Source of the DNA: Planctomycetia bacterium
GTDB taxonomy: Bacteria; Planctomycetota; Planctomycetia; Gemmatales; Gemmataceae
NCBI GenBank assembly: GCA_005799265.1
Contig: SYHD01000348.1
Location: 1-33,329 of the forward strand
DNA: 33,329 bases
Direction: 5' to 3'
Shown here: one piece after another, positions 10,763-27,522 of the stretch
How positions within the stretch are numbered: the stretch's first letter is position 1
Layout: each line of letters opens with the position of its first letter
Made by a program: the position numbers and the translations under genes
Notes under the pieces: generated by a model
Database searches by the model: none
Seen by the model: only the letters and a program-made list of their open reading frames with translations
Told to the model about the DNA's origin: nothing

Positions 10763-10910
10763 CTCCCCTCTCCCCATGGGAGAGGGGTTGGGGGTGAGGG
10801 CCGGATTTGCAATGGCAATCGAGATTCAATCAGCGCATGGCGGGCAAGAAGATTCACCGCGTGGCAACCGTCCCCTCACCCCCGGCCCCACTCCCAAAGG
10901 GAGAGGGGAG
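10763..10910. repeat. Paired family-1 repeat unit A (BIME-like)
   Basis: The left copy has the perfect 10-bp stem CCCCTCTCCC (10765-10774)/GGGAGAGGGG (10778-10787) plus the tail TTGGGGGTGAGGG. The right copy begins with the complementary tail CCCTCACCCCCGG at about 10873 and has the stem CCCCACTCCC (10886-10895)/GGGAGAGGGG (10899-10908), with one mismatch. Palindromes lie outside and tails face inwards. The unit starts directly after the stop of the 1303-residue gene and ends just before the CvpA stop, filling the convergent gap. It could also end transcription. Confidence 0.8.
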
Positions 10911-10914
10911 AAAT

Positions 10915-11496
10915 TCATTTCTTTTGCAGCTCGCCCTTGATGGCATCCAGTGCGGCGTCGGTGAGCCTTTTTTGGACCTGATCGCGCATTTCGTGAACAC
11001 CTTCGTCGACGTGATCGCGAAAATGCTGCGGGATCCAGCCGACCGCGTTCTGCGTGCCTTGGGCGAAATGCGGCGCCAGCGTTGCGTGAACGAACCAGTC
11101 CTTGAAGATCTGCAGATCGAGCGCGACCATCACCGCGCAGACGCACGCCAGGATCGCCCCCATCTTGACGGCGCCCAAGATTGCGCCGAGTACGCGATCG
11201 ACCGTCTCTAGCCTTGACGCCTTGATGGCCGTGTACAGCATGCGCGTGATGAAATAGAGCACAAGATAGGCGAAAATAAAAACGGCCACGAAGGCGATCA
11301 CCCGATTGACGGCAGGGCTGGCATCCTTCCATTGCAGGTTCAGCCAATTGGTAGCGCCGGTGTTCGCCATAATCGCCGCGTACAGCGACACGGCGAGGCT
11401 GACGACGCGCGCAACCTGCCACAACAGGCCGGTGCAGAACCCCATGGCCGCGCCGACGCCGAGAATGACCAGGATGAGGATGTCGAGCCAGTGCAT
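10915..11496 (-). CDS. cvpA: CvpA family membrane protein
   Basis: A 193-residue inner-membrane protein of the CvpA/colicin V production family. The opening MHWLDILILVILGVGAAMGFCTGLLWQVARV is the characteristic first helix and glycine-rich turn, followed by hydrophobic helices near residues 27-45, 64-85 and 105-125 (VDRVLGAILGAVKMG is the usual last-helix entry). A charged amphipathic tail follows (residues 150-193). The family is linked to envelope stability and biofilm-type phenotypes in other bacteria, but has no defined biochemical activity. A GGGGA ribosome binding site lies about ten bases before the ATG. It is alone, converging on the large gene. Confidence 0.85.
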   Translation of the reverse strand: MHWLDILILVILGVGAAMGFCTGLLWQVARVVSLAVSLYAAIMANTGATNWLNLQWKDASPAVNRVIAFVAVFIFAYLVLYFITRMLYTAIKASRLETVDRVLGAILGAVKMGAILACVCAVMVALDLQIFKDWFVHATLAPHFAQGTQNAVGWIPQHFRDHVDEGVHEMRDQVQKRLTDAALDAIKGELQKK

Positions 11497-11879
11497 GCGA
11501 TCGAAGGTCCCCAGGTTCCCAACATCAGGTTAGACGAAGGAAGCGGCGCATACAACGTGCAATGAAGAAATCGCGCCGGGTTCGCGTGCCGAGCGCGCCG
11601 CCTGTGCCGATAACTCCGCCTGTGCTGGCTCCTTGCGCGCGGCTGATGGATAATTCGGTTGCGAAGGCCCTGGATTTCGTTCGCCTGGCACAATCGAACC
11701 GGTTATGATAAGGGTAGGGCTGTTTAACGAATTCGTAAGTCAGGCTTTCCTGTCTGACGCCAAGCCCTTCAGCCTGGCAAGGCTGGCCCAGCGAAATCTC
11801 GCGCAAGCACCATGGACGTTAGCGTTTCAGAAGTGAGTCCAGGCGCGGAGTGTACCCGCCTGATCCAGGAACCCAAGCC
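11497..11879. other. Gap of 383 bases with two small hairpins
   Basis: No convincing gene is present. Two hairpins sit in the right half: GTCAGGC (11739-11745) with GTCTGAC (11752-11758), which pairs with one G-T wobble, and CAGCC (11770-11774) with GGCTG (11781-11785). They resemble each other in having a GCCTGG/GGCTG-type core and may be remnants of a dispersed repeat. A 48-codon frame at 11562-11708 (plus) has no ribosome binding site and is listed under rejected items. Confidence 0.5.
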
Positions 11880-12275
11880 ATGAGACGAGTTATAATTGCT
11901 TTGATTGCAATGACTTGCTTCTCAATCACCGCGCTGGTACAGGGGCGGCCCCAGACCCAGCCGAGCACGGCGTCGGTCGGGTTCCACAACCAGTCCGAGT
12001 TTTCGATCATCGTCAAAGGCTATACGGTTGTCAATGGAGTGCAGCGCGCCGGCCCCCTGGTTCATCTGAAAAAGGGGGCCAAAGGCTTCGAGAACAATGT
12101 GCCGTTGGGGACGCGCTATTACTCGGTGTATGACGCGAATCAGACGTCGCGCATATTGCTCCAGGACAATCCGGTGCCCATTCGCAATTCGATGGTGCTG
12201 CTCAACATCGTGCCGTCGCCGACTAATGCGAACCGCGTGACGATCGTGCCCGTCGGCGGAAGTCCCACCCCGTAA
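11880..12275 (+). CDS. Small exported protein of unknown function
   Basis: A 131-residue protein with a clear signal peptide: MRRVIIALIAMTCFSITALV, a basic start then a hydrophobic core, with cleavage probably near residue 22-26. The mature part (about 105 residues) has alternating hydrophobic residues suggestive of a small beta-sandwich: SVGFHNQSEFSIIVKGYTVV and a later YSVYDANQTSRILLQD. It has no cysteines in the mature region and no recognised motif. I start at ATG 11880, with AGGA upstream, because it places the signal peptide at the N-terminus; a longer frame from 11850 adds ten odd residues. Codon use and composition match a real gene, but no function can be proposed. Confidence 0.7.
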   Translation: MRRVIIALIAMTCFSITALVQGRPQTQPSTASVGFHNQSEFSIIVKGYTVVNGVQRAGPLVHLKKGAKGFENNVPLGTRYYSVYDANQTSRILLQDNPVPIRNSMVLLNIVPSPTNANRVTIVPVGGSPTP

Positions 12276-12385
12276 AACGTCGCGCCAATCTGTCTCAATT
12301 TTTATCTTGCTGATTGCGAAAGCGTCGGAACATCGCTAGATTGAGGCGATTGCAACACTGCCGACTCCCACCCTTGCGAGCAGCC

Positions 12386-13831
12386 ATGAGCATAGCCGTA
12401 GAAAAACCAAGCAACGTGCGTTACGGGGTCCTGGGCTTCGCGTGTGTCCTGTCGATGATCACGTATCTGGATCGGGTTTGCTTCGGCACGGTGGCGTTGA
12501 ACATCCAGAGCGAGTTCAAGCTGACCGAGAGCGAAAAGGGCTGGCTGTTCACCGCGTTCGCGTTTGCCTACGCCGTTTTTGAGGTGCCCACCGGCTGGCT
12601 GGGAGACAAGTACGGCGCCCGCAAGACGCTCATCCGCATTGTGTTGTGGTGGTCGGTGTTCACCGCGCTCACCGGTATGATCTATCCCTCGTTCGAATCC
12701 TTCAACCTATTCGGTTATCTCCTCCCGGGCGCCTTGGTGTCGTTCGGCCTACTCCTGACGGTCCGCTTTCTCTTTGGCGTCGGTGAAGCCGGCGCTTATC
12801 CGAATATCGCCCGCGCCTTTCACAGTTGGTTTCCCTTCAAGGAGCGCGGCTCCGCCAAGGGGGCCGTCTGGATGGCGGGCCGATTCGCCGGCGGCATCAC
12901 CGCGTTCATCGTTTATGCCCTCATGTATGAGACGACGAGCGCGGACGGCGCGGTGATTGTCCATTGGCGGCATACGTTCTACATCTTTGGCGGCCTGGGC
13001 GTCCTGTGGTGCGTCTTGTGGTGGTGGTGGTATCGTGATAACCCGGCCGACAAGGCGGGCGTCAACGCCGCGGAGATCGCGCTGATCCACGAGGGGGAGC
13101 GTCAGCACACCGACAAGCTGGTTGTTCCCTGGGGCAAATTACTGCGCAGCACCAACCTGTGGATCCTGTGCCTGATGTATTTCTGCGCCGCCTACGGCTG
13201 GTACATCAACATCACCTTCTTCACGGGCTATCTGAAAGACCCGCTGGGCATCGAGAGAGGCACGGAAAAATGGACGGCTCAGTTCTGGATCGCGGGCCTG
13301 ATGGCGGGATTGCCGTTGCTGGTCGGTTCGGTGTCCTGCCTGATCGGCGGCGTGTTGACCGACGCCTTCATCAAGCGGACCGGCGACCGCAAGTGGGGCC
13401 GGCGCCTGTTCGGCGTCATCGGTCACGGCCTGTGCGCGAGTTGCTATTTCGTGGCGATCTTTTACATGACGAGCCCGTGGATTTTTGTGCTCTTGATCGC
13501 CTTTGCCGCCTTCTGGAACGACCTCACCATGGGCGCCGCCTGGGCGAGTTGTCTTGACATCGGCAAACGATACTCGGGCATCGTCGCGGGCTGCATGAAC
13601 ACGGTCGGCAATCTGGGTGGAGCGTTGGCCGGCATTCTCACGGGCAAGATTCTCGACTGGCACACCGGCGACCTCGCACGCGGCACCGAGGCCTTCGATG
13701 TCGCCAAGAATCAGGGCTGGACCGTCAACATCTTTCTTTACGGCAGCTTCTACGTTCTCGCCGTGCTGTGCTGGTTCTGGTTCGACGCCACCAAGCCGGT
13801 CGCTCCCGACGAGGACGAACCAGCAGCATGA
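12386..13831 (+). CDS. MFS transporter, anion:cation symporter (ACS) type
   Basis: A 481-residue major facilitator transporter with about twelve membrane segments. It resembles the ACS subfamily that takes up hexuronates, phthalates and other organic anions: YLDRVCFGTVALNIQSEF in the first helix and loop, LFTAFAFAYAVFEVPTGWLGDKYGARKT covering helix 2 and the loop 2-3 motif A, and FLFGVGEAGAYPNIARAFHSWFP in helix 4 and after. The second half has NDLTMGAAWASCLDIG and GILTGKILD. I start at ATG 12386 (MSIAVEKPSN); the longer frame from 12314 adds an arginine-rich leader unlike the family. Substrate unknown; no catabolic genes adjoin. It is followed 87 bases later by a ferredoxin gene that has its own promoter. 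Confidence 0.88.
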   Translation: MSIAVEKPSNVRYGVLGFACVLSMITYLDRVCFGTVALNIQSEFKLTESEKGWLFTAFAFAYAVFEVPTGWLGDKYGARKTLIRIVLWWSVFTALTGMIYPSFESFNLFGYLLPGALVSFGLLLTVRFLFGVGEAGAYPNIARAFHSWFPFKERGSAKGAVWMAGRFAGGITAFIVYALMYETTSADGAVIVHWRHTFYIFGGLGVLWCVLWWWWYRDNPADKAGVNAAEIALIHEGERQHTDKLVVPWGKLLRSTNLWILCLMYFCAAYGWYINITFFTGYLKDPLGIERGTEKWTAQFWIAGLMAGLPLLVGSVSCLIGGVLTDAFIKRTGDRKWGRRLFGVIGHGLCASCYFVAIFYMTSPWIFVLLIAFAAFWNDLTMGAAWASCLDIGKRYSGIVAGCMNTVGNLGGALAGILTGKILDWHTGDLARGTEAFDVAKNQGWTVNIFLYGSFYVLAVLCWFWFDATKPVAPDEDEPAA

Positions 13832-13833
13832 TC

Positions 13834-13862
13834 TTGGCGGTCCCACGGCGTCGCGGTAAGAT
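13834..13862 (+). promoter_or_regulatory. Sigma-70-type promoter of the ferredoxin gene
   Basis: TTGGCG (13834-13839) and TAAGAT (13857-13862) are spaced by 17 bases, immediately after the transporter stop. The predicted start of transcription is about 50 bases before the ferredoxin ATG. Confidence 0.5.
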
Positions 13863-13918
13863 GACGTCAGACACACGTACCGGCTTGAAGGCGTGTCGGC
13901 GATTCGGGAGAAATCATC

Positions 13919-14302
13919 ATGGCCAAAGGTGCGGGAAAAGCTCGCAAGAAACTGCCGAAGGCGCTTGCCGTCGTCAATGCGGACAACTGCACCGGCTGCG
14001 AGGCGTGCGTTGAGGTTTGTCCGGTCGATTGCATCTATAAGGTGCAGGGGACCGACTTGCCGACGCTACAGAGCTTCGTCGATATCGACCTGGAGCGCTG
14101 TATCGGCTGCGATCTGTGCGAGCGCTGGTGTCCGTGGGACGCGATCGAGATGATCAAGCCGACCGAAATCGCTGACGCCGTCGCGATCAAGGGCGGACCG
14201 CCGGAATATGTCGCGGCGAAGCAAGATGAGCTCAACGTGGCGGCGCGGGCGATCCAGGATCTGGCGCTCGAACTGGCGGCCGCGAAACCAGTGAAGAAAT
14301 GA
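13919..14302 (+). CDS. Ferredoxin with two [4Fe-4S] clusters
   Basis: A 127-residue cytoplasmic electron-transfer protein. Cysteines 24, 27, 30 and 34 form the first CxxCxxCxxxCP motif (CTGCEACVEVCP) and cysteines 61, 64, 67 and 71 the second (CIGCDLCERWCP), the standard arrangement of 2[4Fe-4S] ferredoxins. The linker between them is longer than in minimal clostridial ferredoxins, and a basic N-terminal leader (KGAGKARKK) and a helical C-terminal tail of about 50 residues are added. An extra Cys38 follows the first motif. It is alone between a transporter and the convergent rarA gene, so its partner is unknown. GGGAGAAATCATC precedes the ATG. Confidence 0.9.
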   Translation: MAKGAGKARKKLPKALAVVNADNCTGCEACVEVCPVDCIYKVQGTDLPTLQSFVDIDLERCIGCDLCERWCPWDAIEMIKPTEIADAVAIKGGPPEYVAAKQDELNVAARAIQDLALELAAAKPVKK

Positions 14303-14345
14303 CCATCCTCATTTAGCGTTCGGGCGCACGCCAAACCGCATGCGG

Positions 14346-15590
14346 CTATTTCTTTTGGCTGCGCCATTCCGCCAGGCGATTCTTGATTACTTCCTCGTAG
14401 CCGCGTTCGACCGGCTCATAATAGCATCTCTCTTCCGGCAAATACGCCTGATCGACGAAGCCGCCTTCGTAATCGTGGCTGTACTTGTAATCCTCGCCAT
14501 GCCCCAATTCCTTCGCTCCCTGGTAATGTCTGTCGCGCAAATGCTCCGGCACCGCGAGCGTGCGGCCGCTTTTCACGTCGGCGCGCGCTTTACCGATGGC
14601 GAGCGTGGCCGCGTTCGACTTCGGCGCGGTCGCGATGTAGGTGACGGCCTGGGCGAGCGCAAGCTGACATTCCGGCAAGCCGACGAACTCGGTCGCGTGC
14701 ATGGCGGCAACGGCAACGACGAGGGCCTGCGGGTCCGCATTGCCGACGTCTTCCGACGCGCAAATGACGATGCGCCGGACGATGAAGCGCGGATCCTCGC
14801 CCGATTCGAGCATGCGTGCCAGCCAGTAGATCGCCGCATTGGGATCGCTGCCGCGCATACTCTTGATGAAGGCGCTGGCGATATCGTAATGGGCATCCCC
14901 GGTCGGGTCGAAGTCCATCGACTTGCGTTGAATCGAATCCTGCGCAACTTGCAGCGTAAATTCGATCGGCTCCTGCTCGATCGACAAGACGCCGACTTCC
15001 AGCGCGCTCAGAGCGCGGCGGGCGTCGCCATCGCAGATCTCCGCCAGGAAATCGAGGGCGTCATCGTGTGCGTTGATCGCTTTGGCGCCGAGGCCGCGCT
15101 CCTTGTCGCTCAGTGCGCGGCTCAGCAACTCCTTGACTTGCTGCCTCGTCAACGGCACAAACGTAAAGATCTGACTGCGGCTCAAGAGCGGCGAATTGAT
15201 CGCGAAGAACGGATTCTGCGTCGTCGCGCCGATCAAGATGATGCGTCCTTCCTCGACATCGGGCAACAGCACGTCTTGCTGGGCGCGATTGAAACGATGC
15301 AACTCGTCGACGAACAGAATCGTCCGTCGGCCCGAGTCCGCGAGCTCAACGCGGGCTTCTTCCAGAAGTTCGCGCACTTCCTTGATACCGACGGCGACGG
15401 CGTTGACCTGACGAAAGACGCACTGGGTGTGATTGGCGATGACGTGAGCGAGGGCCGTCTTGCCGCTGCCGGGCGGGCCGTAGAAGAGGACGGAGCCGAG
15501 CCGGTCCGCTTGCAATAGGCGCCGCAGCAGCTTGCCTTCGCCGAGGAAGTGCTCCTGGCCGACGAATTCGTCAAGCGAGCGTGGCCGCAT
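14346..15590 (-). CDS. rarA: RarA/MgsA replication-associated recombination AAA ATPase
   Basis: This AAA+ ATPase acts at stalled replication forks. Motifs in the 414-residue reading are RPRSLDEFVGQEH at the start, Walker A GPPGSGKT (38-45), Walker B ILFVDELHRF (near 92-101), GATTQNPFF sensor region, and the C-terminal HDYEGGFVDQAYLP segment typical of RarA. The coordinates use the first in-frame ATG, but coding clearly continues upstream: the frame reads DLFRQAHEANVKKAQPLAAR before that Met, and PLAAR just before RMRP is conserved in the family. No ATG, GTG or TTG exists in that extension; ATC at 15651-15653 has GAGGG seven bases upstream and would give [M]DLF. The true start is therefore probably 15653. 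Downstream it converges on the ferredoxin gene. Confidence 0.93.
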   Translation of the reverse strand: MRPRSLDEFVGQEHFLGEGKLLRRLLQADRLGSVLFYGPPGSGKTALAHVIANHTQCVFRQVNAVAVGIKEVRELLEEARVELADSGRRTILFVDELHRFNRAQQDVLLPDVEEGRIILIGATTQNPFFAINSPLLSRSQIFTFVPLTRQQVKELLSRALSDKERGLGAKAINAHDDALDFLAEICDGDARRALSALEVGVLSIEQEPIEFTLQVAQDSIQRKSMDFDPTGDAHYDIASAFIKSMRGSDPNAAIYWLARMLESGEDPRFIVRRIVICASEDVGNADPQALVVAVAAMHATEFVGLPECQLALAQAVTYIATAPKSNAATLAIGKARADVKSGRTLAVPEHLRDRHYQGAKELGHGEDYKYSHDYEGGFVDQAYLPEERCYYEPVERGYEEVIKNRLAEWRSQKK

Positions 15591-15665
15591 GCGCGCGGCG
15601 AGCGGCTGGGCTTTTTTGACGTTGGCTTCATGAGCTTGGCGGAAGAGGTCGATGAGTCGGCCCTC

Positions 15666-15707
15666 TTCGTTTAGCGCTCGCGCGGCGTCATGCGAGCGCT
15701 AAACGAA
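15666..15707. repeat. Family-2 palindromic repeat, perfect copy
   Basis: TTCGTTTAGCGCTCGC (15666-15681) is perfectly complementary to the sequence at 15692-15707, giving a 16-bp stem with a ten-base loop. It abuts the apparent N-terminus of rarA: the last arm supplies the bases just before the GAGGG, and a stop codon of the rarA frame (TAG) lies in the far arm. Confidence 0.8.
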
Positions 15708-15720
15708 TACAACGGAAAAC

Positions 15721-15758
15721 AAAAAAACCGCGGCGCGACGTGAATCGCCCGCGGTTTT
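15721..15758 (-). terminator. Rho-independent terminator of the LptA-like gene
   Basis: AAAACCGCGG and CCGCGGTTTT (15724-15733 and 15749-15758) form a 10-bp stem, extended by GCGA/TCGC in the loop, and on the minus strand it ends in seven T. It lies 18 bases past the stop of the gene ending at 15777. Confidence 0.85.
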
Positions 15759-15776
15759 CATTTTATCAAACTGCGC

Positions 15777-17159
15777 TCATGGCAACGCAATGTGCGAGAC
15801 GCGCAACACCGATTCGCCGGCGATTTGCTCGGTGGCGCCGTAGACGCTGATGCGCTGGCCTTCGTATTGCGCGAGCGTGCCGCCGTCGCGCGCCACCAAC
15901 AACACGAGCGACGTGCCGCGCGCGTCTTCGAGACGCCAGACCGTTTCGCCAACGTTCTTCGCCTTCTCTTCCGTGCGGCGCAGCACGCCCCACTGGGTCC
16001 ACTGGCCGCCTTGCGCGGGCGTCGTCTTCGTGGCCGGACGGACGGGAATGGCACTGCTGTTGGAGACTTGTTGCAAGGTGGATTGCGCCAGTTTGGCCGA
16101 CTGGAGCTCGCTGATGCGCAGGTTGAGCGTTTCGCCCTTGAGCTCGAACGACGCGGGCTTGGTGTCGCTGCCGTTGGTCGCTGCCTTCAAGATACGCACC
16201 TCGACGCCGCCTTCGAGGATCAGGCGGTCGTCGGTCAAGACGATGCCGAGCGTCTCGCAATTCCCCGTCAACGTATCGCCGGAAATGGCAACCTTGCCGC
16301 TGGCCTTGAGCAGGTCCTTGCCGGTGTTCAGCTCAAGGTTCTGGCAGATGAGCTTGAAGGTGTGCTTGTGATTGACCGTGCCCGTCACGATCGTTTGGCC
16401 ATCGATCATGTCGATGCGCAGACTCCACGGGCTATTCTTGAGCCCAGCGACCTGCTGGCCGATGGGGACGATCGGCGCAACGGGGACGGTGGGCAGCTCG
16501 GTTGTTTTCGGATCCGGTTTCAGCGGAGAAGACGGCAGGCCGGTCTGTGGCCCGGACGGTTTGACTCCGGTCAGGGTCAACGGCCCGTCGCCGCTCACGC
16601 CTGGACTCGTGGGCGCCGGCGAAGTGAGCGCAGCGGGAACGGCGCTCGACGGAAAGACCGGATTGAACGAAGGAATCACGGGTTTGGTCGGTGGCAGGCT
16701 CACGGCTGGCAGGTCTTTGTCAACCTTTTTCGGATCGACTGGAGTGTCGAAAGCAGCTTTCGGATATCCCGGCGTCTCATAACGAAGTGGATCCGCTTTC
16801 GTGTCCTCGCCGACCGCGGGCTTAGGGCCAGTCGGCGCCGCGGGCGGCGCCGCCACCGGCTTCATCGGCGGATGACCCAGCACCGCCGGTTTCGGAAGGT
16901 CCTGCGGCTCGCCCGTCTTGAACGGCGCCAACGACGGCGGTTCAATCGTGATCGGCGCCGGCGCGGGGATCACGAATTTATCGTCCTTCACCGTCGGCAA
17001 CGACGGGATGACCGGGACCGCGTCCTTCTTCGGGGCCTCCACTGTCTTCTGTGCGTTCTGGGCGTCCTGGGCACCGCACAGGCGGTTGAACACGCGTTCG
17101 CCCGCGCCGATTCCGACGATCGCCATCACCAACAGGCCGAGGTAGAGTTTTGTACGCAT
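15777..17159 (-). CDS. Proline-rich exported protein with LptA/OstA-like domain
   Basis: A 460-residue protein. Residues 1-22 form a membrane anchor or signal (KLYLGLLVMAIVGIGAG). Residues 35-235 are a low-complexity, proline-rich linker. About residues 240-323 look like the LptA/OstA beta-jellyroll repeat: TVNHKHTFKLICQNLEL, LKASGKVAISGDTLTGNCETLGIVL, LILEGGVEVRI. That fold in LptA carries lipopolysaccharide across the periplasm. The last 75 residues (WRLEDARGTSLVLL ... YEGQRISVYG ... ESVLRVSHIAL) resemble a small OB-like barrel. The ATG at 17157-17159 has AGGA upstream, its own promoter and a strong leader hairpin. It sits at the downstream end of the envelope gene run. Family call for the jellyroll is by eye, so moderate. 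Confidence 0.72.
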   Translation of the reverse strand: MRTKLYLGLLVMAIVGIGAGERVFNRLCGAQDAQNAQKTVEAPKKDAVPVIPSLPTVKDDKFVIPAPAPITIEPPSLAPFKTGEPQDLPKPAVLGHPPMKPVAAPPAAPTGPKPAVGEDTKADPLRYETPGYPKAAFDTPVDPKKVDKDLPAVSLPPTKPVIPSFNPVFPSSAVPAALTSPAPTSPGVSGDGPLTLTGVKPSGPQTGLPSSPLKPDPKTTELPTVPVAPIVPIGQQVAGLKNSPWSLRIDMIDGQTIVTGTVNHKHTFKLICQNLELNTGKDLLKASGKVAISGDTLTGNCETLGIVLTDDRLILEGGVEVRILKAATNGSDTKPASFELKGETLNLRISELQSAKLAQSTLQQVSNSSAIPVRPATKTTPAQGGQWTQWGVLRRTEEKAKNVGETVWRLEDARGTSLVLLVARDGGTLAQYEGQRISVYGATEQIAGESVLRVSHIALP

Positions 17160-17196
17160 CGCATGCTTCCTTGCTCAAAGAGTGGGATCGATTCCT

Positions 17197-17256
17197 CGTG
17201 GCATTCGATTCCAATCGTGTGCGGAACCCATCACACGATTGGAATCGTATGCCACG
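17197..17256 (-). repeat. 25-bp inverted repeat forming a 5' leader hairpin
   Basis: CGATTCCAATCGTGTG (17206-17221) pairs perfectly with 17232-17247, and CGTGGCAT (17197-17204) pairs with ATGCCACG (17249-17256), with one mismatch between the two blocks: 24 of 25 pairs around a ten-base loop. In the minus-strand transcript it would be at the very 5' end, ending 37 bases before the start codon at 17159. Role could be RNA stability, regulation, or it may be an inserted element. Confidence 0.75.
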
Positions 17257-17261
17257 GCGAA

Positions 17262-17291
17262 ATTCTACCAAAGAGGCACTCCGCGTGTCAG
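17262..17291 (-). promoter_or_regulatory. Promoter of the LptA-like gene
   Basis: On the minus strand CTGACA (17291-17286) and TAGAAT (17267-17262) are 18 bases apart, and TGG precedes the -10 as an extended -10 element. Transcription would begin near 17255, at the base of the leader hairpin. Confidence 0.6.
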
Positions 17292-17390
17292 CATCAATTG
17301 ACATCGGCGCATCTTGTTTATTTGAAGGATGTTACAGAAAACGGCTCGCCTTGAGAGGAACAGCCACCGTTCAAGGCCGGCGTGGATGTC

Positions 17391-17434
17391 AAAAAGAAAC
17401 GCGGACGCGATCACTGCCAAGATCGCGTCCGCGT
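17391..17434 (-). terminator. Rho-independent terminator of the methyltransferase gene
   Basis: ACGCGGACGCGATC (17399-17412) pairs perfectly with 17421-17434 around eight bases; on the minus strand it ends in TTTCTTTTT. It lies 39 bases beyond the stop at 17474. The remaining part of the 314-base gap (17292-17390) holds nothing I can recognise. Confidence 0.88.
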
Positions 17435-17473
17435 CTATTCGATTTCGTCCAGTTCCGCCGCTGAGAATGCTAT

Positions 17474-18205
17474 TTACGGGCGGCGCAATTCCACGATGAT
17501 CCCGCCGAGGCCGAAGACGCGGTGCAGCTTGGTGAAGTAGAGTTGCCGCTGCCAGATCAGGCCGCATTCCTCGCACGAATTCCGCAGTTCGGTGCGATTG
17601 TAAGTTCGGCAGTGCCACAGGTTGCTGCACATGGCGCCGGCGAAGGTGTCTTCCGTCGTCATGAGGAGCAGTTTGCCGCCGGGCTGAAGAATGCGGGTTA
17701 ATTCACGCAGTCCGGGACGCGGATCGGGCAGGTGTTCGAGCACCCAGCCGCAGACGATGGCGTCGAAGTAGCCGTCGGCGTAGGGCAAGCGCGTCAGATC
17801 GGCGGAGACGTAGCAAACCCGGTCGCTCTTCAAGCGGCGGTGCGCCCGTTTCAGCATGCGCTGCGATAGGTCGAAGGCGTGAATCTGGGCGTCGGCGTCG
17901 GCGCGGCGGAGCATGTACTTGACGTGCCGGCCGTTGCCGCAGCCCGCGTCGAGAATGCGCTTGCAGCCGCGCAGATCGAAAGCAGGGGCTTTCAACACCA
18001 GACCGGCCAGAATCGCGTGCCCGGTCAGAAAGCCGGAGACGCTGGTCAGCTTGCCGGCGAGGCCGTCGTAATGATGCTGAATGAAGCTGCGATACTCGGG
18101 AAACGATTGTTCGCTTGGCCGTTGCGATTCGAGCGCCTTCTGCATGACGCGCGTGAGCGGGCCTTTCGCTTCGACGGTTTCGGGCAGCGATTGCTGGGTT
18201 GACAT
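17474..18205 (-). CDS. Class I SAM-dependent methyltransferase (Methyltransf_11 type)
   Basis: A 243-residue soluble methyltransferase. Motif I is ILDAGCGNGRHVKYML, followed by the acidic IHAFDLSQRML, the motif II-like YFDAIVCGWVLEHLPDP and LQPGGKLLLMTTED; this is the UbiE/Methyltransf_11 arrangement. The N-terminal 70 residues, with a conserved-looking PEYRSFIQHHYD segment, are extra. The substrate is not evident. It lies downstream of GT2 and GT39 genes on the same strand (147-base gap), and is followed by a strong terminator, so it is probably the last gene of that group and may modify a lipid or sugar product. Start at ATG 18205 is the first available and gives a full domain. Confidence 0.85.
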   Translation of the reverse strand: MSTQQSLPETVEAKGPLTRVMQKALESQRPSEQSFPEYRSFIQHHYDGLAGKLTSVSGFLTGHAILAGLVLKAPAFDLRGCKRILDAGCGNGRHVKYMLRRADADAQIHAFDLSQRMLKRAHRRLKSDRVCYVSADLTRLPYADGYFDAIVCGWVLEHLPDPRPGLRELTRILQPGGKLLLMTTEDTFAGAMCSNLWHCRTYNRTELRNSCEECGLIWQRQLYFTKLHRVFGLGGIIVELRRP

Positions 18206-18352
18206 GGAAGGGCCTGAAGGAAAAAGGAGCCGTTGTTAATGTTCGTCGGGGTGGCCGGAAAATCAGCCTGAATGCCGAGCGCGCACATCGACGTTACCAA
18301 GGATATGGAGAACGCAAGGAAAGAAAAGCGAAAAACTTGGACGGGCGCACAG

Positions 18353-20760: not shown

Positions 20761-20769
20761 GTTTCAAAT

Positions 20770-20897
20770 CTCCCCTCTCTCTCTGGGAGAGGGGTTGGGG
20801 GAGAGGGCTGGCTGGCCTGCGGCGTTTTGGGTGAGACATGGTACGATCGCAAGGCGAACCCTCACCACCGGCCCCTCTCCCAGAGGGAGAGGGGAGA
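20770..20897. repeat. Paired family-1 repeat unit B (BIME-like)
   Basis: Left copy: CCCCTCTC (20772-20779)/GAGAGGGG (20787-20794) with tail TTGGGGGAGAGGG. Right copy: tail CCCTCACCACCGG from 20859, stem CCCCTCTCCC (20872-20881)/GGGAGAGGGG (20885-20894), perfect 10 bp. Palindromes outside, tails inside, as in units A and C. It fills the gap between the ABC transporter stop and the GT39 start. Confidence 0.8.
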
Positions 20898-20903
20898 AAA
20901 ACC

Positions 20904-22937
20904 TCACGCCACCATCCGCTGCTGCTGCACGTCGTGCAGGCGTTGATACAACGGGCAGGTTCGCATCAGCTCGGCGTGCGTGCCGATGGCGGCGACGCGG
21001 CCTTCGTCCAGCACGACGATGCGATCCGCGACCTCCAGCGTGTGTAGGCGATGGGTAATCAGCAGGATGGTTCGGCCCTTGCGCAGCTCATGCAAAGCGC
21101 GATGGACGTAGACCTCGGCTTCGGGATCGTTCTGATTGGTGAATTCATCGAGAATAAGGATGGTCGGATCGGCCAGAAAGGCGCGGGCCAAGCAGATTCG
21201 CTGTTTTTGTCCGCCCGATAGCCGTTTGCCCTCGGCGCCGACCATGTAGTCGTAGCCGCCTTCCAGATCGTTCAGGATGAAATCGTGCGCCTGGGCACGT
21301 CGCGCCGCCGCTTCGACCGCCTCGCGCGAGGCATGCGGGTGGGCGTAGGCGATGTTGTTGAAAACGGTGTCGTCGAAAAGGAACATGTCCTGCGTCACGA
21401 TCGCGATTTGCTTGCGCAGCGAACGCAAATTCACCGTGCGAATGTCGAGACCGTCGATGAGGATGCTACCGTGATCGGGATCATAAAAGCGAGGCAACAA
21501 ATTCAGCAGCGAGGTCTTGCCGCAGCCGTTGCGGCCGACGAAGGCGACGATCTCGCCGTGTTTGATTTCGAGGTCGACGCCTTCCAGCAACACCTGGCCT
21601 GGAGTGTACGAAAAGCAAACATTGCGAAACTCGATCCCCTTGTGATGATGAGCGAGGACATGTGACTCGGCGTCGTTGTGGATTTTTGGCTCCTGGTCCA
21701 TGTGTTGGAAGACGCGGTCGGCTGCGGCGCAGCCGGACTGGATGCGCGTGTAGACGTTCGACAGCCGCCGAATCGGGTCAGCCGCCGCCGCCAGGAGAGC
21801 ATAAAGCTGCATCAGCGTCTCGGCCTCCAGCGGCTGGTCGGCGATGGGGAATCCAAGGAGGTGCGTCGGTTTCTCCAGCACCAGATAGGCGCCAAAGGAA
21901 AACACGACCGCGACGGCGAGTACCGTCAGCACCTCGATGATCGGGCCGGTCATCGCGTCGAGCGTCACGACCCACATCGCCTTGTTGTAGCAATCGCGCG
22001 TGACGTTGCGGAAGCGGCGCCGTTCGCGCGGCTCGCGCGCAAACGCCTTGACGATGCGTATTCCTTGAAACACTTCTTGCGAGAGTTTGTAGATCCCCGA
22101 AACGCCTTCGAGGAGACGGCGCGTCGCGCGCTTCATCGTCCGACCAAAGCGTGTCAACACGATCAGCGCGAAAGGAGTAATCACCAGGCACGTGATCGTG
22201 AGTTGCCAGTTGATCCACGCCGCCACGGCAATGCACGCGACCGCTTTCAATGGCTCGGCGATGACTTTGCCGAAACTGGTGCGCATCCCCTGCCCGATCA
22301 GATCGATATCGTTGGTGAGACGCGTGGTCAGCTCATGGGTGCCCGCTTCACCAAAGTGGCTGACATCCAGCCCCAGGCAATGGCGAAAGAACGTATTGCG
22401 CAGATCGAATGTCGAGCGATTGACGACGGCGCCGACCAACGATTCCTGCCAAAACTCGAGTACACCGCGCAGCACCACCGCGACGATCACCAGAACCAGA
22501 ACGGCCATCAAGGTTTGGAATCGGTTTGTCGGACAGTAGTTGTCGATGTAACGCTTGGCGACATGATAGCGATGCAGGTCGCTGCGCGCGTTGTTCAAGT
22601 CTGATTCAAACTTGGCGGCGGCGTCGGCGAATTTCCGCTCCAGTCTGGCTTTGTCATCCTCATTGGACTCATCTATCTTCCGCTGCCACTCGGCTTTCAC
22701 CTTGATCATCTGCTTTTCGGCCGGCTCGACCTGTTCCTTCTGACATTTGTCGATGGCCGAATCGATCCAGGTTTGCAAATTTTGGTCCTTGCCGAAAACT
22801 TGCAGTATCGGATAGAGAGCCGTGAAGTTGAGGCTCCAAAACCCAGCGGCGAGAAGCGCGCAACCGATGGAAATGCCAAGGCGAAAACGGTAGGGCCAGG
22901 CGAAACGCAGAGCGCGGAAAAAATGCCTCATCCCCAT
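20904..22937 (-). CDS. MsbA-like ABC exporter with periplasmic coiled-coil insertion
   Basis: A 677-residue half-transporter: an N-terminal six-helix permease domain fused to a C-terminal ATPase. ATPase motifs are Walker A GRNGCGKTS (near 465), Q-loop VTQDMFLFDDTV, signature LSGGQKQR (near 570), Walker B ILILDEFTNQND (near 590) and switch His LITHRL (near 627). This arrangement matches lipid-A/drug exporters of the MsbA type. Between helices 1 and 2 a charged segment of about 80 residues (52-135, with EKQMIKVKAEWQRK and DDKARLERKFADAAAKF) is inserted and looks like a coiled coil outside the membrane. I start at ATG 22937, which has AGGA eight bases before it; the longer frame adds 18 residues. 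It heads the GT39-GT2-methyltransferase group. Confidence 0.92.
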   Translation of the reverse strand: MGMRHFFRALRFAWPYRFRLGISIGCALLAAGFWSLNFTALYPILQVFGKDQNLQTWIDSAIDKCQKEQVEPAEKQMIKVKAEWQRKIDESNEDDKARLERKFADAAAKFESDLNNARSDLHRYHVAKRYIDNYCPTNRFQTLMAVLVLVIVAVVLRGVLEFWQESLVGAVVNRSTFDLRNTFFRHCLGLDVSHFGEAGTHELTTRLTNDIDLIGQGMRTSFGKVIAEPLKAVACIAVAAWINWQLTITCLVITPFALIVLTRFGRTMKRATRRLLEGVSGIYKLSQEVFQGIRIVKAFAREPRERRRFRNVTRDCYNKAMWVVTLDAMTGPIIEVLTVLAVAVVFSFGAYLVLEKPTHLLGFPIADQPLEAETLMQLYALLAAAADPIRRLSNVYTRIQSGCAAADRVFQHMDQEPKIHNDAESHVLAHHHKGIEFRNVCFSYTPGQVLLEGVDLEIKHGEIVAFVGRNGCGKTSLLNLLPRFYDPDHGSILIDGLDIRTVNLRSLRKQIAIVTQDMFLFDDTVFNNIAYAHPHASREAVEAAARRAQAHDFILNDLEGGYDYMVGAEGKRLSGGQKQRICLARAFLADPTILILDEFTNQNDPEAEVYVHRALHELRKGRTILLITHRLHTLEVADRIVVLDEGRVAAIGTHAELMRTCPLYQRLHDVQQQRMVA

Positions 22938-22981
22938 TTGGCAAATCCTTTCGGGTGATCGGGGCGCGTCCATTCGCTGGG

Positions 22982-23011
22982 GTTGTACCACAAGCGTGAA
23001 GGTAGGGACAA
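22982..23011 (-). promoter_or_regulatory. Likely promoter of the ABC exporter gene
   Basis: On the minus strand TTGTCC (23011-23006) and TACAAC (22987-22982) are 18 bases apart, with TGG before the -10 as an extended element. The leader would be about 40 bases. Confidence 0.45.
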
Positions 23012-23063
23012 GAGGTGTTGCCGCGGGGGATGCCCCATTTTTCCGGGCTTGGCCGAACTGCGC

Positions 23064-23126
23064 CGCTTGCGGCTTAGCGTTCGCGTGGAAGTGTCAAATC
23101 ACCGATGCTTCAACGCGAGCGCTAAA
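23064..23126. repeat. Family-2 palindromic repeat with CCGCTTGCGG head
   Basis: CCGCTTGCGG followed by CTTAGCGTTCGCGT pairs over most of its length with ACGCGAGCGCTAAAC near 23112-23126. It lies directly after the stop of the LolB-like lipoprotein gene (23131), the position expected of a terminator on the minus strand. Confidence 0.6.
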
Positions 23127-23130
23127 CACT

Positions 23131-24039
23131 CTACTTTTGGAACCCCTGCACCGGCAGGACGCCGCGCGGCTCGGGGCGGCCCGTCGCGAGGTTGAACGGT
23201 TCGACGCCGTCGATCGGTTGACGCACGAATGCCGTCGCCGCGATGTTCGTGTTGACGGCCGCCCCATCCAGCTTTAGCGCCATGCGCATTTTCTGCGCCG
23301 GCATGCGCAGCTCCATCTTGTAGGGCAAGATGGCCCCAGTCGTGCGATCGACCGCGGTGGCCGTGATGTGCGCGGAGCAGATTTCCTTGCCGGTCGCCTC
23401 GTCGATAAGCAGAAACGCGGTGACCTGCGGCGTCGGTGCTTTCACTTCCCGACGATTCATCACAATCACCTTGCGCACCGGTTGACCCTGCGGCGAACGC
23501 GTCTTTTCAACTAGACGAATCGTCTGATTGTCCCCGGGTTCGAGTGTGTATTTCTCGGCGACGTACGGACCCAGGCCCATCGCTTCCATCACCCAGTCGG
23601 GCTGAATGGGAATCGGCATCCCCTTCACGCGGCCCTGGTTGAGGTCGTCGTAGCTGCAGTAATACTGATAGGGTTCGGGGTTCTTCGCCGCCCAGAACCA
23701 GAACTCGTCACGGTTCGAGCCGATGTCCACTTCGTCCTTGCCGAACGGGCTGACGACCTTCATGCGAAAGTTGCGCGGCCCTTCCGCATAGATTCGGCCG
23801 CGCAGACCGATAGTTTGATTGCCCATCGTCGCATCGATCGACATGTCATCGACCCGTATGGACTTGATGCGACGCGCATTATCGTTGAGATACGTGACGA
23901 GACCGGCCGTCGATTGCGAACCGGCCCCTTTGCCGGCGACATCGTTGTTCGGTTTGAACCAGTTCCAGCGCGTACTTTCGCAGCCTGCCAACGTCACGGC
24001 GAGAAGGCCTAACGCGATCATGCGGAGATTGGCTTGCAT
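23131..24039 (-). CDS. Lipoprotein with LolA/LolB-like fold
   Basis: A 302-residue lipoprotein: signal MQANLRMIALGLLAVTLAGC with lipobox LAGC (Cys20). The region after it (AGLVTYLNDNARRIKSIRVDDMSI, LRGRIYAEGPRNFRMKVVSPFGKDEVDIGSNRDEFWFWA) has the repeated long beta-strands and 'F.M.V..P.G..E...G.N....W.W' pattern of LolB/DUF4292-like proteins that bind lipids or lipoproteins at the outer membrane. GGGAG lies eight bases before the ATG. It is preceded by a small conserved gene and followed, after a repeat, by the MsbA-like exporter, all on the minus strand. Fold assignment is by resemblance; localisation to a membrane is firmer. Confidence 0.75.
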   Translation of the reverse strand: MQANLRMIALGLLAVTLAGCESTRWNWFKPNNDVAGKGAGSQSTAGLVTYLNDNARRIKSIRVDDMSIDATMGNQTIGLRGRIYAEGPRNFRMKVVSPFGKDEVDIGSNRDEFWFWAAKNPEPYQYYCSYDDLNQGRVKGMPIPIQPDWVMEAMGLGPYVAEKYTLEPGDNQTIRLVEKTRSPQGQPVRKVIVMNRREVKAPTPQVTAFLLIDEATGKEICSAHITATAVDRTTGAILPYKMELRMPAQKMRMALKLDGAAVNTNIAATAFVRQPIDGVEPFNLATGRPEPRGVLPVQGFQK

Positions 24040-24082
24040 TGTAAGGTCTCCCGACCGCTTTGCGTTTGCCGTGTTACGTCGA

Positions 24083-24116
24083 ATCGCGGGCGCTGCAACA
24101 CGAGCGCTAAACGGAT
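24083..24116. repeat. Degenerate family-2 repeat
   Basis: CGGGCGCTGCAACACGAGCGCTAAACGG contains the GAGCGCTAAAC arm of the repeat and a weakened left arm. It lies between the lipoprotein start and the stop of the gene at 24122, again at a gene 3' end. Confidence 0.45.
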
Positions 24117-24121
24117 GCGGT

Positions 24122-24604
24122 TTATTTCCAACCCAGCACGCGGAACACTTCGTCCTGGACCTCGTTCATCTCGGCGTCGCTCAGGCGTGGATTGACGACT
24201 TCATGCTTCGCGCCGGTTCCCATATGCGTGAGCATGATCTTCTCGGCGCCGTCCACCAGCACGGATGACTCATACCGTAAGCGCCGTCGGCGCAGCAAGA
24301 GCAACGCGACGACATAGCGAAAATTGATGCGCCCCGGTTCGGTCTCCCCTTGCAGCCGTTGGAAGCAATCTTCCAGGAGATCGTCATCGAAGCGCGGCCT
24401 GACTTTCTCGGTGCCGGCCTGCACGCGCCCCGTCCAGAAGCTGACGGCATCCGTGGGGGGACCTACCCAGGCTTCCACGCTGAAGTCCTTGCGCACGAAC
24501 TGCCTATCTTCTTCGACCAGCGCGGAGAAATAACGCTCGCCCACCTGCAAATCCCTGCCGGTGACGGCACAACGCCGCGAGTTGGGTTGAATCTGGTAGT
24601 CCAT
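24122..24604 (-). CDS. Conserved-type protein of unknown function
   Basis: A 160-residue soluble protein without signal peptide or membrane segment. It opens MDYQIQPNSRRCAVTGRDLQVGERYFSALVEEDRQFVRKDF, a pattern (CAVTG, GERYFS, VRKDFS, then GPP and FW) that I associate with planctomycete conserved hypotheticals; function is unknown. The single Cys-x-x-x-Gly does not make a metal site. The C-terminal half is helical and charged (EAEMNEVQDEVF-type ending). I start at ATG 24604 because the sequence before it reads poorly; a longer frame to 24655 exists. It is followed by the LolB-like lipoprotein gene 82 bases downstream. Confidence 0.68.
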   Translation of the reverse strand: MDYQIQPNSRRCAVTGRDLQVGERYFSALVEEDRQFVRKDFSVEAWVGPPTDAVSFWTGRVQAGTEKVRPRFDDDLLEDCFQRLQGETEPGRINFRYVVALLLLRRRRLRYESSVLVDGAEKIMLTHMGTGAKHEVVNPRLSDAEMNEVQDEVFRVLGWK

Positions 24605-24903
24605 ACCGACAGTCCCGGGATTTTCCGGGCCTTCCACAGCGCCAAAGGTGCTCACGAATACGGCAGCTTCAATAGGGTGTTCGAGGTCTCAATGGCGCAT
24701 TACTTTACATTCTCATCGTATCGTCTCATGCTTGTAAAGAGCAAGATGTCCGGTAGGACATCGCCATCTTGAGCGAGTTGGCAGGAGTCGGGCGTTACCG
24801 TCGTTTGCAACGTTCCGGTTGCGGAAAGTTGAACGAATGCACGGGCTAGCTCGTGCGGGTAAATTGCGACGACCAATCGAGCCGGGCCAAGAGGAAGCGG
24901 GGT
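24605..24903. other. Gap of 299 bases with two short palindromes
   Basis: No gene is seen. GATGTCC-ggta-GGACATC (24745-24762) is a perfect 7-bp hairpin that can refold with the flanking CAAGATG/CATCTTG (24742-24748 and 24765-24771). GCACGGGCTAGCTCGTGC (24839-24856) is a palindrome with a single G-T pair. Both look like dispersed short repeats. CTTTACA and TGTAAAG flank 24717-24734 nearby. No clear promoter was found. Confidence 0.5.
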
Positions 24904-26373
24904 TTACTCCTTCTTTTGACACTTCTGCAGCACGTCATCCAGCTCAAACGGCGTCGGGATGCCCCAGCCTGTTTGCGTGAAGGAGACTAAGCCATCGCTG
25001 TCGATGACGACGATGCGCGGCGTTTGCTCGACGCCGAAGGTCAAACGCATGCCGTTACCGTCGTGGATCGGGAACGTCAGCCGTAAATCCTGATGCTGCT
25101 TGCGGACGGCGTCGCCATTCGGTGCAACGGCCATGGCGAGAATCATCACGGGCGGCCCGTTTCTTTCGCTGAGTCGTTTCGCGTAGGCGAGGAGTTCTTT
25201 GCCAAGTTCCGTCGCCGGGTTGTAGAAGAACACCAGCGTCGGCTTGCCGTGCTTGGCCTTGAACTGAGTCGCGTGCTCTTGCGTCAGAGCGCTGAGGACG
25301 AAATCCGGTGCGCGATGGCCGATGCCCAGGCCGCGCATGGGAAGATGGGCCGGCTCCTCGGCGACGTGCGGCACGGGTATCTCGCCCTTCTTCGCGTTTT
25401 CGAGAATCGACTTGAGATGGACGAATACATGACGGTAGGCGGAATTTTGTGCCCGGTCGAGATGCCCCGTCAGGCGTTGCAGTTGAATGTCGATCTGCGT
25501 GCGGTTCTGCGCTGGCTCTTTGATGAGCATCTGCGTCGTGTCGTAAGTTTCGCTCGCTTTGAGCATCTCCTGCATGCGCTCCTGGAACAGGATGTTCGGA
25601 TAGCGCAAATGGCTCTCCAGCTCATAGCGGACACTGACGCGCTCGGTCGGGTGTTCGCGGGCCGGGTCGCGGCGTTCGATGATGCGTTCAACTTTTTGAG
25701 CGACGTTAAGCTGTGGGTGCAGCCAGACGATGTCGCGCCGGCGCCAGGCGACCTGATCGGCGCGGGCGCGGTCCCAGTCCTCGGTTTTTTGCTCGCCTAC
25801 CACTTTGATGCACGAGATGCCGCCGCTCGATTCCATGCCGACCACTTGCCAGCGCATGAGCGGCCGGCCTTCCTCGGGAACCTCCCACGTATAATTGCGG
25901 CCAACTTTTGTCAGCGGCACGGTGACCAGGAAGCCGCATTCGAGCGTCGGCGGACCCTTGAGCGGAATCTGTACGAGGCGTTTGTCGCGATTGCGGATGC
26001 GGCCTTGCAATTCGACCTGGGCGAGTTCGAGGCGCAGCGAGGTTGGCCCGTCGTTCACCTTTTCCTTGGGCGCGGCGACCGGTATGATGGGAAGTTTCTT
26101 GGCCAGTGGGTCGCTGCCGTCGTGCAAACGCAGCGAGGTCAGGAAGGCAACGCGCCAATCCTTGACGCCGGCTTCGAGAACGAGCAGGTTGGCGTCGAGA
26201 CGATAACGCGTCTGCCGCTCGAAATTCTGGCCGAGGACTTCGTCCATGAACTCGCCGCGATAGATCAGTTCAAGGCCGGGCGCGATTTGCGGCGTCAATT
26301 GCCAGTCAGCGCGATCGCCGCCGGGTTGGGCCAGCATCAGGGCGCAGGAGAGCAAGCAGATCGACGTGTGCAT
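24904..26373 (-). CDS. Secreted protein with cysteine-less thioredoxin-like domain
   Basis: A 489-residue exported protein. Residues 1-16 or so are a signal peptide. The central 330 residues (beta-rich, then helical) match nothing I know. The C-terminal 140 residues are a redoxin/TlpA-type thioredoxin fold: GHRAPDFVLSALTQEHATQF, KPTLVFFYNPATELGKELLAYA, VMILAMAVAP, GVEQTPRIVVIDSDGLV. In TlpA-like proteins the position of NPATELGK carries a WCxxC active site; here neither cysteine is present, so it is unlikely to be a disulfide oxidoreductase. The ATG at 26373 is preceded by GGAGG and its own promoter. The gene stands alone; the divergent membrane protein gene starts 210 bases away. Confidence 0.82.
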   Translation of the reverse strand: MHTSICLLSCALMLAQPGGDRADWQLTPQIAPGLELIYRGEFMDEVLGQNFERQTRYRLDANLLVLEAGVKDWRVAFLTSLRLHDGSDPLAKKLPIIPVAAPKEKVNDGPTSLRLELAQVELQGRIRNRDKRLVQIPLKGPPTLECGFLVTVPLTKVGRNYTWEVPEEGRPLMRWQVVGMESSGGISCIKVVGEQKTEDWDRARADQVAWRRRDIVWLHPQLNVAQKVERIIERRDPAREHPTERVSVRYELESHLRYPNILFQERMQEMLKASETYDTTQMLIKEPAQNRTQIDIQLQRLTGHLDRAQNSAYRHVFVHLKSILENAKKGEIPVPHVAEEPAHLPMRGLGIGHRAPDFVLSALTQEHATQFKAKHGKPTLVFFYNPATELGKELLAYAKRLSERNGPPVMILAMAVAPNGDAVRKQHQDLRLTFPIHDGNGMRLTFGVEQTPRIVVIDSDGLVSFTQTGWGIPTPFELDDVLQKCQKKE

Positions 26374-26399
26374 GGGGGCCTCCGTAAATAGGGCGCGGG

Positions 26400-26427
26400 A
26401 CTATAACATAGCGGCTCTTTTCGACAA
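26400..26427 (-). promoter_or_regulatory. Promoter of the thioredoxin-like gene
   Basis: On the minus strand TTGTCG (26427-26422) and TATAGT (26405-26400) are 16 bases apart, leaving a short leader of about 20 bases. The -35 hexamer is identical to that of the peroxidase promoter at 529. Confidence 0.55.
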
Positions 26428-26507
26428 GCGACGTTTTCTGCCGCTTGTCACCTAGCGCTCGGAATGGAGCACGGGGGCCCTAAGCCGCAAGCGACACGCC
26501 AGCATTC

Positions 26508-26536
26508 TTGGCCCACTTGTGGGAATCGGCTACAAT
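26508..26536 (+). promoter_or_regulatory. Promoter of the membrane protein gene
   Basis: TTGGCC (26508-26513) and TACAAT (26531-26536) are 17 bases apart. Transcription would begin near 26543, about 42 bases before the GTG start. Confidence 0.55.
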
Positions 26537-26584
26537 GCCCGCATCGCCGAGCTTCGTCTCCTATCCGAAATTACGGAGTCGATC

Positions 26585-27400
26585 GTGCTAGGGTTGTTCT
26601 TCATCCTTGTTTTGATGTTCGCCACCTTGACGGTTCTGCTCTGGGCGGGCTCATATTTTTTCCAGGGCTACATCTACACCGAGCCATCGCCGGGGATGTT
26701 CTGGCAGGCGCCCGCCGCGGGGTTCTTGTTGACGATCGGCTTCGCGATCTGGGCGTTAGCGATCGCCATGGGGGACCGCTCAAGTCCGACGAATCGCCCC
26801 ATTGACACACTCATGCGATTCAGCCCGCGCGACGAAATGCTCGACCGTCCCGCGCCGCTCATCTGGGCGGTCAAGGCCGATCGCCGCAAGCCCGGCGAGT
26901 TCAAGGACGGCGAATCGACGCTCTACGAAAGCAAACGCGAGGGTCCGAACCGGTTTCAATACAAGGACAAGACGACCAATCCGCGTCCCTGGCAGCCGCA
27001 GGACATCGTCGCGCTGGATGTGGAAAAGAACGACGGCACGAAATGGCGATTCAATTACGTCCCCGGCGGCGAAGGCGCATACGGCTATTTCGTCAGCCAG
27101 GACGGCTGGGTCATCGAGGTGGACAAGTACAATGCGCCGACCGGGATTCCGGTGAAGTTTTTCTACGGCCGGCTGATCTGGAACCTGGCCTTCAACTTCG
27201 GCCATCTGTTCGGCTGGTTCATCGCGTTGTGGGTGGTGTTGCGTTTTCAATGGCCGCATGCGCTAGGCTTCGCGCTGGTGCTGTGGGTGCTGTTCACCCT
27301 CATCTTTCTGCCGATGCTCCTGGGCTACGCCGGCGAGGTCGCGGTGAGCCGGCAGACGCGCGCGGCGCTGGTGTATTTTTTCCTGCCGCTTGCGGCTTAG
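26585..27400 (+). CDS. Membrane protein of unknown function, four or more helices
   Basis: A 271-residue integral membrane protein. Two hydrophobic segments at the start (LGLFFILVLMFATLTVLLWAG and a GFLLTIGFAIWALAIAM segment), a soluble domain of about 120 residues (KDGESTLYESKREG to IPVKFFYG) and two more helices at the end. No family recognised. I start at GTG 26585, with GGAG six bases upstream and a promoter at 26508; the frame also has an ATG at 26519, but it lies upstream of the predicted transcription start. The last codons and stop (CTGCCGCTTGCGGCTTAG) match the head of the family-2 repeat, so the C-terminal LPLAA seems to be repeat-derived. The copper-amine-oxidase-like gene follows on the same strand. 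Confidence 0.72.
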   Translation: MLGLFFILVLMFATLTVLLWAGSYFFQGYIYTEPSPGMFWQAPAAGFLLTIGFAIWALAIAMGDRSSPTNRPIDTLMRFSPRDEMLDRPAPLIWAVKADRRKPGEFKDGESTLYESKREGPNRFQYKDKTTNPRPWQPQDIVALDVEKNDGTKWRFNYVPGGEGAYGYFVSQDGWVIEVDKYNAPTGIPVKFFYGRLIWNLAFNFGHLFGWFIALWVVLRFQWPHALGFALVLWVLFTLIFLPMLLGYAGEVAVSRQTRAALVYFFLPLAA

Positions 27401-27410
27401 CGCCGTATTT

Positions 27411-27522
27411 CTCCCCTCTCCCCTGTACTCAGGGGAGAGGGGCCGGGGGTGAGGGGGCTGGCACCCGCGAAAAATGCACCCCTCACCCCAACCCCTCTCC
27501 GCCGATTACGGGAGAGAGGGGC
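27411..27522. repeat. Paired family-1 repeat unit C (BIME-like)
   Basis: Left copy: CCCCTCTCCCCT (27413-27424)/AGGGGAGAGGGG (27431-27442), perfect 12-bp stem, tail CCGGGGGTGAGGGGG. Right copy: tail CCCCTCACCCCAA from 27479 and stem CCCCTCTC (27492-27499)/GAGAGGGG near 27514-27521. Orientation is the same as in A and B, with the shortest spacer, about 20 bases. It separates the membrane protein gene from the copper-amine-oxidase-like gene. Confidence 0.8.

Follow-up and report, generated by a model that had tools for sequence, protein, structure and literature searches.

Inverted hairpin pairs in a Gemmataceae genome match the intrastrand triplex motif, with DUF559 nucleases as candidate partners

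What are the paired hairpins that lie in three unrelated gaps of a planctomycete contig, and what spreads them? The window, by which we mean the whole 33,329-nucleotide stretch analyzed here (GenBank assembly GCA_005799265.1, contig SYHD01000348.1, Gemmataceae), contains the pairs A, B, and C. A preliminary description had reported them as paired hairpins with inward-facing tails and had proposed that they are mobile units moved in trans by a RAYT/TnpA-REP-type transposase. The sequence agrees with the three pairs as reported; a fourth, single copy at 5010-5046 had been overlooked.

Paired hairpin units and their identity

Each half-unit of A, B, and C, as read from the window, follows the design CTCCCCTCTCCC-loop-GGGAGAGGGG-NN-GGGGGTGAGGG, in which CTCCCCTCTCCC and GGGAGAGGGGNNGGGGGTGAGGG form the stem and NN is the linker. 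The units (TM, after the triplex motif identified below) and site C as a whole are as follows.

5010..5046, - strand: single TM unit, in frame in gene 4681-6735(-), encoding PLSPLGEGLGVRE; the ortholog in congener G006 lacks the unit
10763..10800, + strand: left TM unit of A, linker TT (A-type), directly 3' of the stop codon of gene 6851-10762(+)
10873..10911, - strand: right TM unit of A, linker CC (B-type), 3-4 nt off the 3' end of gene 10915-11496(-)
20769..20807, + strand: left TM unit of B, linker TT, tail GGAGAGGG
20859..20897, - strand: right TM unit of B, linker CC, 6 nt off the 3' end of gene 20904-22991(-)
27388..27552, no strand: site C, where the TM pair is nested in another palindromic repeat family with arms CCGCTTGCGGCTTAGCGC and AAGCCGCAA (compared with L145, L148, and L149)
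27411..27455, + strand: left TM unit of C, linker CC, loop CTGTACTCAG, 10 nt past the stop codon of gene 26519-27400(+)
27480..27522, - strand: right TM unit of C, linker TT, hairpin CCCCTCTCCGCCGATTACGGGAGAGAGGGG partly degenerate

The halves of each pair are inverted, with their GTGAGGG tails pointing inward across tail-to-tail spacers of 72 nt (A), 51 nt (B), and approximately 24 nt (C). The consensus hairpin or tail is slightly off in one or both halves of every pair, and the exact hairpin pattern occurs 3 times in the window versus 0 times in 100 dinucleotide shuffles. A second palindrome family (TTCGTTTAGCGCTCGC/GCGAGCGCTAAACGAA) occupies other gaps of the window, at 6772-6826, 15663-15717, 23072-23127, 24057-24112, and 28725-28795; the gap at 28724-28795 measures only 18 bp in genomes G003 and G005.

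Judged by its sequence, the motif of A to C is the published intrastrand triplex motif, TM or TM_ECO, and hence an already known kind of repeat. The units follow the TM_ECO pattern CCCTCTCCC..GGGAGAGGG..GGGTGAGGG given in Table 1 of PMC4666352, with linkers 1-2 G longer than in TM_ECO. A sequence-independent triplex finder, defined by a pyrimidine stem, a complementary purine stem, and a mirror-symmetric G-rich third strand, hit each of the seven window units and had no further match in the window, and no Rfam family matches the units. Each unit comprises a C-rich/G-rich hairpin with a G-rich tail able to align with the hairpin as its third strand. We take these motifs to be the repeats also named PIT elements. 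TM are known from E. coli and over 260 further genomes, and triplex folding of TM_ECO was demonstrated in vitro (Holder et al. 2015, PMC4666352); by analogy with that study, we infer that the planctomycete units would fold in the same way.

Across the 6.47-Mb assembly we counted 196 exact hairpins and 154 exact copies of the hairpin foot plus tail, and reversed-pattern controls in the same assembly gave 0 matches. A profile search of 1.63 Mb of this genome (121 stretches) recovered 103 units in 76 clusters, of which 24 are '><', one is '>><<', 28 are '>', and 23 are '<', with no '<>' and no '>>' cluster among the 76. The tails therefore point inward in 25/25 multi-unit clusters, which have the inverted arrangement and short spacers of REP/BIME/REPIN elements; a stricter regular-expression version of the search gave 22 '><', one '<>', and one '>>'. 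Most spacers fall into two classes, short (23-35 nt) and long (51-81 nt), some with conserved ends. The preliminary description had suggested a genome-wide search for the paired structure and its orientation, and this search showed that the inverted-pair design recurs and is strongly non-random. It had also held that mostly single copies or a random orientation would count against a mobile pair; about two thirds of the 76 clusters are indeed single units, whereas the orientation of the paired ones is strictly inward. Across the genus, copy number ranges from 3 to about 160.

Dispersal between and within genes

Units A to C are absent from the orthologous gaps of congeners, which are empty or filled differently, and at site B genomes G003, G005, and G006 contain no palindrome of any kind. 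Congeners are approximately 77% identical in genes and saturated in intergenic DNA, so this comparison reads presence or absence and not exact insertion ends. Similarly, no target-site duplication is evident at A to C or at locus L025 (described below), where congener intergenic DNA is too diverged for exact empty sites. In the orthologs of gaps 10763-10914 and 20761-20903 (L160-L164, L168, and L181), the palindrome families differ or are missing altogether, which points to repeated colonization of a few gaps. Because copies are nested in another repeat at site C and also lie in coding sequence, they disperse as discrete insertions. This much of the earlier mobile-unit inference holds up; its choice of RAYT as the mover, considered below, does not.

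Genes were called with a simple codon-usage gene caller, by which 34 of the 76 clusters overlap genes, 26 of them (a hand count) with a clear coding signal on both sides. Whole pairs of 100-148 bp lie within glnE-type, DNA polymerase I (polA), purL-type, asparagine-synthase (asnB-type), and glycoside hydrolase 18 genes. The polA insert lies in the stretch that links the 3'-5' exonuclease domain to the polymerase domain, and the ten planctomycete orthologs compared lack it. The closest named relatives of this polA are Gemmataceae assemblies, and domain scans find the planctomycete domains PSCyt1, PSCyt2, and PSD1 in the genome's proteins; three PSD1 proteins carry a unit at a homologous spot. 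Of the motif's three forward frames, one is interrupted by a TGA stop, and the tabulated in-gene peptides all avoid that frame. In-frame insertion with absence from orthologs, the pattern of Rickettsia palindromic elements (RPE), is found in polA, in gene 4681-6735 compared with G006, and in the domain scans. The in-frame copies in polA and further core-enzyme genes show a way in which repeats can extend essential proteins by new segments. Intragenic REPs were also listed by Di Nocera 2013 (PMC3733652).

Further in-gene repeats were observed alongside these. In three planctomycetes (L143, L197, and L198), the exonuclease-polymerase linker of polA is occupied by in-frame palindromic repeats that are unrelated to one another; the L198 repeat resembles the palindrome family flanking the RAYT gene of L128, and the polA of L197 has a single TM at another place. 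Two TM units also lie in frame in a protein of 1668 aa (L139:4663-9669) that combines DUF4011, AAA_11/AAA_12, and MTES_1575 nuclease domains.

A DUF559 gene between inverted copies

At locus L025 of the present genome (G000), inverted copies at 2079-2116 and 2590-2627, with tails inward and 474 bp apart, enclose a 110-aa ORF (2165-2497) that Pfam assigns to DUF559 (E=6e-38). The ends of this arrangement are identical over 47 nt, a length obtained by hand reading of the two ends, which suggests a recent unit of approximately 550 bp. An enzyme-coding element with the same ends, as expected for the source of MITEs, is thus present as the DUF559 gene at L025 (approximately 2078-2628). The genome has four other DUF559 matches, and the flank result covers L025. 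In the congener G001 (C28), a DUF559 gene at 10320-10634 has inward-facing copies (10278-10300 and 10666-10688) at distances of 20 and 32 bp. In G299 (C3), motifs stand 50 and 40 bp from DUF559 on both sides and face outward, the opposite orientation. Copies face the gene ('> gene <') in G000, G001, Sphingomonas, Sinorhizobium, and Pseudanabaena and face away from it ('< gene >') in Synechocystis, Deinococcus, and G299. The flanking motif is lineage-specific, for example CCTCCCCCC..GGGGGAGG-CT-GGGAGGGGGG in Deinococcus and CCCCCC-AGAATT-GGGGGG-CTA-GGGGGG in Pseudanabaena. In E. coli, the DUF559 gene is ycjD, and a TM copy lies close downstream of it.

The association extends across phyla. Thirteen DUF559 loci had been selected out of 43 plasmid-collection records prior to any reading of their flanks, and TM lies within 200 bp of DUF559 in 11/13 at stem 7 and 10/13 at stem 8, with finder thresholds that were fixed after several flanks had been seen; the Picosynechococcus and Shinella loci did not pass the triplex test. 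We compared DUF559 genes with neighboring ORFs in eleven named records from three phyla, using a neighborhood of approximately 30-40 kb in each. TM lies within 200 bp on either side of 8/11 DUF559 genes versus 12/285 control ORFs (p=1.4e-8), and on both sides of 5/11 versus 2/285 (p=5e-7). Among 294 Planctomycetota genomes, the motif occurs in 28/43 with a strong DUF559 match (E below 1e-20) versus 29/251 without (OR 14, p=4e-13). The association is maintained when each family is counted once (16/19 versus 18/74, p=3e-6; the total of 93 families is a hand count). Twenty-nine of the 57 motif-bearing planctomycete genomes lack a strong DUF559 match, and in the congeners G002 and G006, which have 75-83 exact copies, a DUF559 gene was not detected. 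No DUF559 relatives were found in viral contigs.

In the E. coli sapF-fabI interval (L229-L233), the match spans 80% or more of the ycjD query in 3349 of 5313 matching genomes, and in the three short-match strains inspected, efflux-pump genes take the place of ycjD. We had considered strains without ycjD as empty sites and rejected them as such: an efflux-pump locus occupies the gap (PMC12817139), so these strains are not simple empty sites.

PD-(D/E)XK enzymes are nucleases and are not known to act as stand-alone transposases. DUF559/YcjD is a member of this superfamily whose profile detects Vsr (PMC1189080), and the Caulobacter DUF559 protein VsrA is needed for a DNA-damage response in methylation mutants (PMC12907096). 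We found no report tying the DUF559 family to palindromic repeats in the literature searched, which omits most subscription journals, such that a prior report is possible.

Explanations weighed and compared with known systems

Taken as a whole, the best explanation is probably that A to C are short non-autonomous copies of TM, in the form of MITE- or REPIN-like inverted pairs, and that DUF559 is their candidate trans-acting partner. By analogy, DUF559 would stand to TM as RAYT stands to REPs. Points that weigh against this candidate are the motif-bearing genomes lacking a strong DUF559 match, the varying orientation of the copies around the gene, and the family's character as nucleases rather than known transposases.

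The proposal of the preliminary description, in which a RAYT (a Y1 tyrosine transposase) mobilizes the pairs in trans as REP/BIME/REPIN elements, draws on genuine resemblances to REP dimers, namely inverted pairs with 20-100 bp spacers, high copy number, and intergenic bias; moreover, the genome has nine Y1_Tnp genes, and 13% of the genome is missing. However, a check of the flanks of every Y1_Tnp (PF01797) gene identified in this 87%-complete genome found the motif beside none of the nine, whereas two of these nine are flanked by other palindromes unrelated to TM: the gene at 9389-10028 of L128 has TCAGAGCCTGAAGCG on both sides, and the gene at 1-729 of L132 has CCCGCGCAGGCTCGCTGCGCTCG on both sides. 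These two loci, which display the classic RAYT/REP arrangement in a planctomycete, serve as a built-in positive control: the flank test does recognize a RAYT accompanied by its repeats. In G001, only 2/11 Y1 genes have an exact copy within approximately 1.1 kb, and none of the 11 is bracketed by exact copies at 500 bp or less. Also, the outer and inner flank profiles of the motif lack the unpaired REP tag GTAG or CGTC at one end of the palindrome. On the 87% of the genome available, we therefore rejected RAYT as the mover of TM pairs and consider this origin highly improbable.

Two further explanations dispense with a dedicated mover. TM could spread through triplex-provoked instability and error-prone repair, with DUF559 merely settling in the same permissive gaps. 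In line with this idea, E. coli triplex motifs have been connected with rearrangement (PMC4666352), copies persist where DUF559 is absent, and orthologous gaps in sister species hold unrelated palindromes, which implies that some gaps are simply permissive. Random repair, though, would not give a strict inward orientation and conserved spacer classes, nor would it be expected to bracket DUF559 with identical inverted ends, and TM at DUF559 flanks exceeds that at neighboring ORFs of the same records; we regard enzyme-free spread as unlikely. Alternatively, the pairs could be kept for a function at gene ends, such as transcription termination, protection of mRNA 3' ends, or insulation between genes. 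Intergenic copies do lie very near stop codons (median approximately 16 nt) and farther from start codons (approximately 95 nt), and another palindrome is often found in the same gap of sister species. Yet the stem has no following T-run (its right flank is GGGGAGAAA) and no call of a terminator-like site falls on A, B, or C, for which reasons an intrinsic terminator was rejected; a known RNA family was likewise rejected, given the absence of any Rfam match. In addition, G003, G005, and G006 do without any palindrome at site B, and approximately one third or more of clusters lie inside genes. We give a gene-end function little credence.

Returning to DUF559 as the candidate partner, we considered how it could act on the repeats. 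The nuclease would recognize the folded hairpin or cruciform and nick it, and the nick would allow excision, copying, or repair-driven spread of the repeats; such action on folded pairs may be what drives their dispersal. Within a pair, the linkers are mostly of different type (TT versus CC), with identical linkers in 2/21 pairs versus 6.6 expected (p=0.004), and E. coli pairs are mixed in 5/5 cases (p=0.02), so a folded mixed pair would carry T-G mismatches. Vsr cuts T-G mismatches, and those of a folded TT/CC pair may, speculatively, be the kind of substrate that it cuts.

More broadly, and only tentatively, TM repeats and DUF559 nucleases might form a separate class of mobile DNA across phyla, parallel to REP/RAYT, in which the folded repeat would be the substrate of the nuclease, with the T-G mismatches of mixed pairs as a possible site of action, and short pairs would be non-autonomous and also insert in frame into essential proteins. 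If true, this would be a second repeat-plus-enzyme partnership beside REP/RAYT and would provide a function for a widespread protein of unknown function. The candidate partner gene is found even in E. coli, as ycjD, which makes the spread of TM testable in the laboratory.

Among known systems, REP/BIME/REPIN elements with RAYT (Nunvar 2010, PMC2817692; Di Nocera 2013, PMC3733652) share with the repeats described here the inverted dimers, the intergenic bias, and a gene bracketed by a pair of inverted repeats, as has been described for RAYTs. They differ in that here there is no GTAG/CGTC tag and no flanked Y1 transposase, and the flanked gene encodes a PD-(D/E)XK nuclease. RPE are likewise palindromic repeats read in frame inside conserved proteins, but they have another sequence and occur in another phylum, and here whole pairs (approximately 48 aa) are inserted besides single units. 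The DUF559/YcjD/Vsr-like nucleases (PMC1189080), including Caulobacter VsrA (PMC12907096), belong to the same protein family as the gene at L025, with PDB 3hrl as a relative. The closest match is TM/TM_ECO itself (Holder et al. 2015, PMC4666352), which is near-identical in sequence, has the same hairpin plus third-strand tail, occurs in many genomes, and shows both linker types (TT/CC) and inverted pairs of mixed type. Unlike TM_ECO, which in that study was always intergenic and for which no mobility gene was found (PMC4666352), the planctomycete repeats lie in frame in genes in at least 26 of 76 clusters and enclose a DUF559 gene between inverted copies.
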